This document shows, piece after piece, positions 46,898 to 50,340 of a DNA stretch of 50,620 bases (position 1 is its first letter; each line of letters opens with the position of its first letter). The DNA is from Bacteroidota bacterium. Lineage in GTDB: Bacteria > Bacteroidota > Bacteroidia > Chitinophagales > BACL12. The stretch covers positions 1-50,620 of the forward strand of contig JAKQVC010000005.1 in the NCBI GenBank assembly GCA_029571985.1, written 5' to 3'. Under the pieces are notes generated by a model, which had not been told where the DNA came from, made no database searches, and saw only the letters and a list, made by a program, of their open reading frames with translations. A program made the position numbers and the translations under genes.

Positions 46898-47386
46898 CAA
46901 TCAGCCCCAGGGGGGCGACACACCCACTAACAACACACCGCGACCAGCACACAGCCCCATCGGGGCGACACACCCACTAACAGAACACAGAACGGCCTCC
47001 AACCAGCCGCATCAGGGCAACAAACACATTTCCAACTTATCGCCCGTCTAGCAATCAGCCCCAGGGGGGCGACACACGCACTAACACAACGATGGACTAA
47101 GAACACACAGCCCAATAGTGGCGACACGCTCTAACAACACACATCGTGACCAGCAATCAGCCCCAGGGGGCGACACACCCACTAACACAACGATGGACTA
47201 AGAACACACAGCCTGATATGGGCGACACACAAATTACCAAGCAACCGCCCAACAAACAATCAGCCCCATAGTGCAACAAACACATTTCCAACTTACCGCC
47301 CGTCTAGCAATCAGCCCCAGGGGGGCGACACACCCACTAACAACACGATGGACTAAGAACACACAGCCCCATAGGGGCGACACAAC
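46898..47386 (-). repeat. REP-like palindrome array 1 (minus orientation, ~51-bp period)
   Basis: Ten units begin near 46902, 46952, 47004, 47056, 47108, 47158, 47209, 47261, 47312 and 47364, spaced 50-52 bp. Each has a small palindrome AGCCCC-nnn-GGGGCG followed by ACACACCCACTAACA or a variant. A two-unit module is duplicated almost exactly 256 bp apart (47017-47127 and 47273-47383). On the minus strand the unit reads GTGTCGCCCC..GGGGCT. The array ends 4 nt from the stop codon of the RAYT gene. Spurious ORFs cross it, and nothing here looks coding. Confidence 0.9.
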
Positions 47387-47389
47387 GTA

Positions 47390-47851
47390 TCAATCGAAGC
47401 AATCAAACCCATACCTGGGATCAATCTCAAACCCCTCATTCGCGAGCCACTCTGCATATTCCTGTCTGAAGGTTTTTGTTTTATGATGCTCCTCCTGATT
47501 TTGTATATAGGCTATCGTCCGTAACCGATGATTATAAGAACAAGTAAACGCACTATATCCAGCTTGCCATGAAAAACCCGCCCCTTTACGCAGTTCATGA
47601 TTCATATAATTCGTACTCGAAGCCTTCACCGCACCAATAACAGACGATAAAGTTTCTGTCGGTAAAAGAGAGAACAATATATGCACATGATCCAACCATC
47701 CACCAACTGCATACACGTAGTGTCTTTTTGAACGTAATATCCCTGCGATGTAAGCATGAAAATCATCACGAATCTCAGGTGTGATGAAACAGCCACGATC
47801 TTTAACAACGAAGACTGCATGAATCACAATCTGGGTATAGGAATTTGCCAT
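47390..47851 (-). CDS. REP-associated tyrosine transposase (RAYT, Y1/IS200-like)
   Basis: This 153-residue protein belongs to the single-strand DNA transposase family with the HUH motif DHVHILFS at residues 54-61 and the catalytic Tyr at 115 in IAYIQNQEEHH. The C-terminal KTFRQEYAEWLANEGFEIDPRYGF is typical of the Bacteroidota branch. Family members cut and join single-stranded DNA at hairpins. The ATG at 47851 (MANSYTQ) is preferred to the frame start at 47860. It stands between palindrome arrays in opposite orientation and has no partner gene such as tnpB, which is the layout of RAYT loci that spread REP sequences rather than of a mobile IS200 copy. A perfect 8-bp inverted repeat lies just before its start. 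Confidence 0.88.
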   Translation of the reverse strand: MANSYTQIVIHAVFVVKDRGCFITPEIRDDFHAYIAGILRSKRHYVYAVGGWLDHVHILFSLLPTETLSSVIGAVKASSTNYMNHELRKGAGFSWQAGYSAFTCSYNHRLRTIAYIQNQEEHHKTKTFRQEYAEWLANEGFEIDPRYGFDCFD

Positions 47852-47856
47852 AAATA

Positions 47857-47881
47857 GCAATACTACATCCGGCAGTATTGC
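47857..47881 (-). promoter_or_regulatory. Inverted repeat upstream of the RAYT start codon
   Basis: GCAATACT (47857-47864) and AGTATTGC (47874-47881) form a perfect 8-bp inverted repeat around a 9-nt loop. The proximal arm is 5 nt from the ATG at 47851. It could shield the start region in the mRNA, bind a regulator or be a DNA hairpin recognised by the transposase. It is unrelated in sequence to the array palindromes. Confidence 0.5.
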
Positions 47882-47975
47882 ACTTATTTATCCTAAGCGA
47901 GTATATTCGAATATAAGCGTGTTGATTCGGGTTGGATTTTTAGTAAGCCTTGGCTGTATCGTAAGCTTCAGCCGT

Positions 47976-48334
47976 TGTGTCGCCCCTATGGGGCTGTTTG
48001 GTATGTGCTATGTCTGGTTAGTGGGTGTGTCGCCCCCCTGGGGCTTAATGCAATATGTGTCGCTCCGTTGAGGCTTAATGCAGTATGTGTCGCGCCGTTG
48101 GGGTTTAATGCAGTATGTGTCGCTCCGTTGGGGCTTAATGCAGTATGTATCGCTCCGTTGGGGTTTAATTCAGTATGCGTCGCTCCGTTGAGGCTTAATG
48201 CAGCATGTGTCGCCCAGTTGGGGCTGTTTGGTTTGTGCTATGACTGGTTAGTGTGAGTCGCGGCGATAGGGCTTAATGCAGTTGGGGTTGTCTCATTGGG
48301 ACTTGTACAATTTGTGTGACCCCGATGAGGCTTT
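47976..48334 (+). repeat. REP-like palindrome array 2 (plus orientation, mostly exact 30-bp period)
   Basis: Palindromic units start at 47981, 48031, 48061, 48091, 48121, 48151, 48181, 48211 and 48259, with two decayed ones near 48290 and 48320. Six intervals from 48031 to 48211 are exactly 30 bp, with unit consensus near CGCTCCGTTGGGGCTTAATG plus CAGTATGTGT. The outer intervals (47981-48031 and 48211-48259) are 50 and 48 bp and carry the GGTTAGTG spacer seen in arrays 1 and 3. The long and short forms share the palindrome and the GTGTCG lead-in. An open frame across the array follows trivially from a period divisible by three. The rest of the interval up to 48448 shows no other gene. Confidence 0.9.
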
Positions 48335-48448: not shown

Positions 48449-49705
48449 TTATGTTTTTTGTTTTTGTTTTTTTGCGGCGGGGAATAGGACGTTATTGAGG
48501 ATAAGACGATAACCCGCTGAATTGGGATGTAACTCTAATTCGGTTGGCGGATCGCCGACGTAGTGTTTGTAATCTTCTGGGTCGTGTCCGCCGTAGAAAG
48601 TCCAGGTGCCGTAGCCATATTCACCATGAATGTACCGTGCTTCATTCGCCGCTTTATTTTCGCCCATAATTAAGACACTACTTTTAATAAGGCTATTATT
48701 AAAAGCAGTTGTTTGTCCAAAAAAACCAGGAATCGTGCGTTCATGACACTGTGTAAGCATGGTTGGAACAGGATCCCATTTTGCAGAAAAATCAAAGAGC
48801 GTGAAAAAATCTAATGGCTTATCTACATTGCGTGTTTGTGAAACATCAATATCACTTATGCGATACTCATACGGATTTCTGCTGATAGTGAAATCCTCAA
48901 AAGCAAAACACTTTTCATAATCTAATTTAGCCTGCGCACCCGGATCTGCCGGATCGCCATCAAACATAACTTCACATATATCCACACCCTCAGCCGCTAA
49001 GGCTATATCGTAGCTATCAGCCGCAGAACACATCGCAAATAAGAATCCACCTCCGCTCACAAAGTCGCGAATTTTATGCGCCACCGCCAGTTTTAACTGC
49101 GATACCTTCGTAAATCCATATTCCTTGGCAATGGCCTCATTTTCTTCAACCTGCTGCTGATACCAAGCCTGCGTGTGATAAGCACTCCAGAATTTCCCGT
49201 ATTGTCCTGTAAAATCCTCATGGTGTAAATGCAGCCAGTCGTATTTCGGCAATTCACCATCCATTACTTCCTGATCGTATACAACCGTGTACGGAATTTC
49301 AGCATAAGTAAGTACAAGTGTAACCGCATCATCCCATGGTTGTTTGGTTTTGGGACTGTATACAGCCACCTTAGGTGACTTTTCAAGCTTCATCACATCC
49401 ATATTCGCTTCCGGGTTTGCAATTTCAGCAACGATATTGTTATAGGAAGCATCCGGGATAACATCATAACTCACCCCTCTGATTAAACATTCTTTTTCGA
49501 GTTCATCGGAATATTGAAAACAAAAACTGCCGCCGCGATAATTTAACATCCAGTCAACCTTGCCTCCTTTTTCTAAAAACCAATAGGCTATACCATAGCA
49601 TTTAAGATGGTCTTTTTGTGAGTTGTCCATCGGCAACAGGATATAGGAAGCCTTTGCTACGAGGGCCACAAAAAAGAGGAAGGTGAATATGCTGAGTTTT
49701 TTCAT
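48449..49705 (-). CDS. Exported asparagine-synthetase-B-like protein of unknown function
   Basis: This 418-residue protein has a signal peptide (MKKLSIFTFLFFVALVAKAS). The sequence YILLPMDNSQKDHLKCYGIAY near the mature N-terminus belongs to a Bacteroidota group annotated as asparagine synthetase B, although I see no glutamine-hydrolysing Cys start or PP-loop. Later motifs include VYSPKTKQPWDDAVTLVLTY, LHLHHEDFTGQYGKFW and GGGFLFAMCSAADSYD, which look like a Rossmann or ThuA/glutamine-amidotransferase-like fold. The ATG at 49705 follows a perfect -7 element by 10 nt. Its 3' end lies about 115 bp from array 2. The true activity is unknown. Confidence 0.8.
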   Translation of the reverse strand: MKKLSIFTFLFFVALVAKASYILLPMDNSQKDHLKCYGIAYWFLEKGGKVDWMLNYRGGSFCFQYSDELEKECLIRGVSYDVIPDASYNNIVAEIANPEANMDVMKLEKSPKVAVYSPKTKQPWDDAVTLVLTYAEIPYTVVYDQEVMDGELPKYDWLHLHHEDFTGQYGKFWSAYHTQAWYQQQVEENEAIAKEYGFTKVSQLKLAVAHKIRDFVSGGGFLFAMCSAADSYDIALAAEGVDICEVMFDGDPADPGAQAKLDYEKCFAFEDFTISRNPYEYRISDIDVSQTRNVDKPLDFFTLFDFSAKWDPVPTMLTQCHERTIPGFFGQTTAFNNSLIKSSVLIMGENKAANEARYIHGEYGYGTWTFYGGHDPEDYKHYVGDPPTELELHPNSAGYRLILNNVLFPAAKKQKQKT

Positions 49706-49715
49706 ACGTCGACAA

Positions 49716-49723
49716 CAAATGTA
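49716..49723 (-). promoter_or_regulatory. -7 element of the asparagine-synthetase-B-like gene
   Basis: On the minus strand TACATTTG (49723 to 49716) is a perfect TAnnTTTG and lies 10 nt before the ATG at 49705, implying a leader of only a few nucleotides. Confidence 0.5.
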
Positions 49724-49836
49724 ACGCAAAAATTACGCCAAAGTATATGTGTTATCGGCCTGTGCAGACCAAGTCAAAGGTTACTGTTGATGGCAGTAAA
49801 GTGGCTAATGCGAAAGGGTGGGAAGCGCCGTTATTT

Positions 49837-50128: not shown

Positions 50129-50340
50129 TTGTGTCGCCCCTATGGGGCTATGTGGTGTGTGCTTTGGCTTTGTTAGTGGGTGTGTCGCCCCGCTGGGGCT
50201 GTTTGATGAGCGTTAGGCTTTGTTAGTAAATGTGTCGCCCCTATAGGGCTTTGTGGTGTGTGCTATTGCTTGTTAGTGGATGTGTCGCCCCGCTGAGGCT
50301 TAATACTGTATGTGTTGCCCTTGTGGGGCTTTTATGTGTG
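50129..50340 (+). repeat. REP-like palindrome array 3 (plus orientation)
   Basis: Five units start near 50135, 50186, 50236, 50286 and 50316, with three intervals of 50-51 bp and one of 30 bp. They share the core GTGTCGCCCC-TAT-GGGGCT, and the long intervals carry TTGTTAGTGG-type spacers. The stretch from 50340 to 50500 is G-rich and shows no gene; a frame read through the array is spurious. Confidence 0.88.

Follow-up and report, generated by a model that had tools for sequence, protein, structure and literature searches.

A single-copy Y1 transposase gene of the IS200 side framed by dispersed palindrome arrays in a Bacteroidota genome: a probable REP/transposase pair

The window analysed here, a stretch of 50,620 nucleotides, is one contig of the 4.01 Mb draft genome (282 contigs) of a Bacteroidota bacterium. 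It contains a Y1/HUH transposase gene (47390-47851, minus strand) framed by two divergent arrays of short palindromic units that point outward on both sides, and a third array of the same family. The subfamily to which the transposase belongs has a copy number of one in this genome. The features are the following:

46903..47383, minus strand (the gene's strand): array 1, 8 clear and 2 degenerate units on the 3' side of the gene, pointing away from it
47384..47400, minus strand: leader (GCTTCGATTGATACGTT) of the array 1 unit next to the gene, overlapping the last codons and the stop of the gene
47390..47851, minus strand: Y1/HUH transposase gene, 153 aa (Pfam Y1_Tnp, 78.2 bits, E 7e-22; motifs and alignment)
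47965..47976, plus strand: leader (GCTTCAGCCGTT) of the array 2 unit next to the gene
47977..48332, plus strand: array 2, 9 clear and further degenerate units on the 5' side of the gene, pointing away from it
50131..50330, plus strand: array 3, 5 units of the array 1/2 family, period 50-51 then 30 nt

The Pfam match bears out the 153-residue HUH/Y1 transposase that an earlier note on this DNA had claimed, and the third array with the same unit was also found. The earlier count of about ten minus-oriented units on the 3' side of the gene was right (the clear ones lie within 3 mismatches of GTGTCGCCCCnnnGGGGCT), and that of about eleven plus-oriented units on the 5' side was close. Between the stop codon of the gene, at 47390, and the start of the nearest array 1 unit, at 47383, there are 6 nt counted from GTGTC, or the 4 nt claimed if the conserved TT before GTGTC is taken as part of the unit. 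The period of the units in the window is 49-53 nt, except in a block of array 2 (48027-48225) where it is exactly 30 nt. An ORF of 93 codons with a CVAPLGLNAV repeat (47975-48256, plus strand), whose frame is held open by the 30-nt period, is probably a by-product of that period and not a gene. Array 2 is adjoined by the gene of a 426-aa protein (48449-49729, minus strand) that matches nothing in Pfam or NCBIfam at E 0.001.

The unit can be written GTGTC-GCCCC-nnn-GGGGC-T, that is a 5' foot (GTGTC), a 5-bp stem, a 3-nt loop and a 3' T. As a single strand (GTGTCGCCCCGATGGGGCT), typical units are predicted to form just this stem and loop (-4.8 kcal/mol), whereas the one unit tested from the 30-nt block of array 2 folds poorly. 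The genome-wide count, which had been asked for beforehand, gave 91 matches when up to 2 mismatches were allowed, against 0 for the control, the reversed pattern, while a degenerate 18-mer gave 64 against none for its control; the array layout is thus far beyond chance. There are 29 unit clusters in the genome, nearly all between predicted genes, and most arrays have a period of 49-53 nt. More than 20 array loci are scattered over the genome against one copy of the gene, and the REP/transposase layout proposed earlier is in this respect supported by comparison. Units are therefore dispersed without the gene, and arrays share spacers internally: spacer identity is 0.76 within arrays and 0.57 between them (0/2000 permutations), suggesting that arrays grow in place after their founding. 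The first unit of nearly all arrays is preceded by CGTT and, further 5' at about half of the arrays of the genome, by a leader GCTTC..TATA.GC (GCTTC lies within 30 nt upstream of 17/33 first units, with about 2.5% expected per unit), whereas later units are preceded by TTGTTAGTGGGT. Neither an Rfam search of the repeat nor a plasmid search gave a match, and no empty sites for units were found.

Many dispersed arrays are embedded in a larger repeat, likewise intergenic and about 155-160 bp in size (loci L015, L016, L017, L019, L023, L027 and L028), which is made of quasi-tandem 8-9 nt motifs (ACGTCGAC, ACCTGAAC, CTTACCGC). Divergent array pairs were also seen without a gene (L011, 4758-5051; L026, 5017-5296). 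Their inner units are about 145-160 nt apart and their first-unit leaders are similar, a layout like that of the gene locus minus the gene, and these pairs are possibly deletion derivatives.

Comparison with other genomes shows that gene and units are linked across order and phylum as well as at this locus. A total of 120 genomes were searched (that of the window included), 59 of which carry a homolog, and hairpins were collected from the flanks of 89 homologs of the subclass from the order and of 80 from a phylum-wide scan, with the HU genes of the same order as a control; since at least 3 of the 80 phylum-wide loci are also in the order set (L189, L209 and L233), the sets are almost, though not entirely, independent of each other. 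Within 400 bp, hairpins with stems of at least 5 bp occur at 0.42 (order) and 0.45 (phylum) per 100 bp versus 0.07 beside HU genes, and at least two hairpins with the same stem were found at 47/89 and 53/80 loci versus 0/30 control loci. This concentration decays within about 500 bp: densities are 0.66 and 0.83 per 100 bp over the 100 bp nearest the gene, and 0.01-0.12 at distances above 600 bp. On 34 of 46 sides the unit closest to the gene faces outward (p=0.0016). The commonest feet are of the type TNTC, with TGTC, TATC and TTTC in the lead, and were found in 64/257 and 63/259 hairpins, where about 8 are expected in each set; these counts come from a repeat of the scoring without the selection (positions -1, -2 and +14) that had made a first version partly circular. 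By contrast, the classical GT[AG]G foot was found in only 1/257 and 1/259 hairpins (4 expected), in agreement with the earlier remark that the motif is unlike GTAG/GTGG REPs. The tandem amplification that had been stressed before is real at this locus but not unique to it, for arrays spaced at about 50 nt flank homologs in other genomes, and clustered REPs were already known (PMC3733652).

The type of palindrome follows the lineage of the protein. Mapped on the protein tree, palindrome type requires 30 changes (shuffled minimum 32, mean 35.7) and loop length 5 (shuffled minimum 8), although such shuffles separate co-evolution from shared ancestry only in part. Paralogs within one genome carry different palindromes (e.g. 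in G001, G061 and G041): in G001 one gene has an array of ACCCC units and the other has GCCCC hairpins, and a search of G000 and G002-G005 did not find the ACCCC unit. Stems are constrained to pair. In G006, where the stem is GCTCC/GGAGC, the changes fall at partner positions in 23/24 matches, and in G057, where it is ACCCC/GGGGT, they do so in 47/48, the foot being GTGTC in both; these matches come from a search with 2 mismatches and no pairing requirement, while covariation counts on the collected hairpins were set aside because those had been selected for perfect stems. The proposal that GTGTC is the recognition foot gains support from this comparison, the foot being kept across genomes while the stem changes in pairs, and GTGTC may be regarded as a putative guide.

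Which enzyme this is matters for the interpretation. With its DHVH, WQ and YIQNQEEHH motifs and a predicted catalytic Tyr115, the protein is assigned by sequence to subclass 1.2 of TnpA_Y1, which belongs to the IS200 side of the superfamily, and it displays what defines that subclass (DH[IV]H, WQ, Y---Q--HH, about 150 aa and low copy number). It passes the NCBIfam IS200 model NF033573 (58.3 bits, cutoff 55) and falls well below the RAYT model REP_Tyr_transpos (24.4 bits, cutoff 80). A profile of 23 members found IS200/IS605 transposases among solved structures and not TnpA_REP, and the predicted structure (pLDDT 86) is closest to ISDra2 and IS608, with TnpA_REP 4ER8 last among the significant matches. 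Classical RAYT membership (TnpA_REP, class 2) was discarded given the missing Y---NP motif, the RAYT score and a GTGTC foot in place of GT[AG]G, and the earlier designation as a RAYT transposase in the Proteobacterial sense does not stand. The reference classification describes subclass 1.2 as neither insertion sequence nor REP-associated and lists it without REPs (Quentin et al. 2018; PMC6006769). The same-stem hairpin families contradict that published description and not the assignment of the protein. The automatic search of Quentin et al. targeted canonical REPs, whose foot is GT[AG]G (PMC6006769), and would therefore miss these hairpins. No earlier report of REPs for subclass 1.2 was found in the part of the literature searched.

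Our preferred reading, to which we give a probability of about 0.75, is that the locus is an independently arisen REP/transposase pair ('REPtron') with an IS200-side enzyme of subclass 1.2. The system works like REP/RAYT, yet by the features tested its enzyme is outside the RAYT class. We infer that the enzyme binds, cleaves and mobilizes the units. It would bind the hairpin as a single strand, read the foot (GTGTC here, TNTC in many relatives) as a guide and cleave beside it via Tyr115, so that units could be moved or excised. A founder unit would occasionally be placed elsewhere, after which the array would expand on the spot. Two neighbouring feet may delimit a fragment of about 50 nt that can be cut out and joined in at another foot, or the expansion may be due to ordinary slippage and recombination.

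The main difficulty for this scenario comes from units found without the gene. Using a degenerate TGTC-footed pattern, which leaves out other palindrome types, unit count and gene presence were not correlated across the 120 genomes (rank test, p=0.26), matches being present in 20/59 gene-bearing and 18/61 gene-less genomes. Among the gene-less assemblies, G057 (132 units), G110 (20), G092 (16) and G030 (8) carry several units, and even a profile search for the gene found none in any of them; in G057 no Y1 transposase was found either. The 132 units of G057 match the degenerate pattern, many of them are of the form GTGTCACCCC-nnn-GGGGT, and they are often 54 nt apart. However, the gene-less assemblies in question are drafts of 230-490 contigs and genes of the subclass crowd contig ends (17 lie within 500 bp of an end, with 4.2 expected), where they are easily lost, which makes gene absence in such drafts unreliable. 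True loss of the gene, or mobilization by another enzyme, is possible in these unit-rich assemblies. The earlier note would have been contradicted by equal abundance of the repeat in relatives lacking the gene, and the outcome is divided: the four gene-less relatives of the same family show no more units than the control, but in several other gene-less assemblies the control is exceeded.

These assemblies, the absence of a correlation between counts and gene presence and the locally duplicated look of the arrays would all suit host repeats, such as terminators or mRNA-stabilizing hairpins, that spread or slip independently and merely have the gene among them. We consider this improbable nonetheless, since host repeats would leave unexplained why hairpin density is centred on the gene in two samples and not on the control gene, why lineage-specific palindromes match the protein clade and differ between paralogs of one genome, and why no Rfam family matches. 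It is equally doubtful that this is an ordinary insertion sequence of the IS200 type, in which case the hairpins would be the subterminal ends of a mobile element with tnpA and would have multiplied around a copy in decay. The IS200 model score and the ISDra2 and IS608 transposases as nearest solved structures are what such an element would predict, but not one gene copy against more than 20 gene-less repeat loci, nor many mostly outward units per side in place of one hairpin per end. The multiple near-identical element copies that mark IS200/IS605 are not seen, the gene being single-copy here and paralogs in relatives being 26-88% identical and never near-identical. Finally, the position of array 1, a few bases past the stop codon, and of array 2, upstream, could mean that the main role of the flanking arrays is to regulate the transposase gene (through attenuation or mRNA decay) and that dispersal is a by-product. 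This would leave the dispersed gene-less arrays unaccounted for, and we regard it as very unlikely.

Taken as a REP/transposase pair, the system has features of several known ones. With TnpA_REP/RAYT class 2 (E. coli, Stenotrophomonas, Marinomonas; PMC8266576) it shares a single-copy Y1 enzyme, outward short palindromes, clusters near the gene and inverted flanking palindromes dispersed in the genome, and perfect 5-bp REP stems are known in Marinomonas (PMC8266576). It differs in having Y---Q--HH rather than Y---NP, a TNTC/GTGTC rather than a GT[AG]G foot, and a structure nearer IS200/IS605. IS200/IS605 elements (IS608, ISDra2) provide the nearest fold and sequence profile and have subterminal ssDNA hairpins with a 5' guide, whereas here there are no multiple gene copies, many opposite-oriented hairpins per side and gene-less dispersed units. 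Subclass 1.2 itself (PMC6006769) is alike in protein motifs, length, low copy number and Bacteroidota distribution, but has no REPs listed, while over half of the loci examined here have same-stem hairpin families. TnpA_Y1 class 3, described as possible intermediates (PMC6006769), likewise combines a Y1 enzyme with a class-1-like Y motif and several atypical hairpins dispersed in the genome, but has its own Y----Q motif and CnGA foot and is mainly found in Planctomycetes, Acidobacteria and Proteobacteria. The CGTC-tagged palindromic repeats (Di Nocera 2013; PMC3733652), whose tag is reported to vary to TGTC, are present in some Bacteroidetes but, unlike the units here, have 8-9 bp stems, are mostly head-to-head dimers and show no association with a transposase gene.

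By extension, we lean towards the view that subclass 1.2 as a group consists of REP-forming enzymes with their own TNTC-footed hairpins (other feet in sub-clades), and that on the IS200 side insertion sequences gave rise to REP systems independently of the class 2 RAYTs. The reference classification left the role of the subclass open, and a cognate hairpin family provides a testable substrate. A second case of REP systems from IS200-type enzymes would be useful for the study of transposase domestication, and the hairpin family would explain a class of intergenic repeats in Bacteroidota that may break draft assemblies.

A different Y1 gene was also seen at locus L127 (2741-3295; contig C35 of G000). 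It encodes 184 aa with NHIH and YIHRNP motifs, like subclass 2.6, and has on its 3' side (about 2300-2730) its own cluster of GGGTC-tcY-GACCC palindromes. The genome has 8 exact copies of this palindrome: 5 sit beside the gene, and contig C112 has the other 3.
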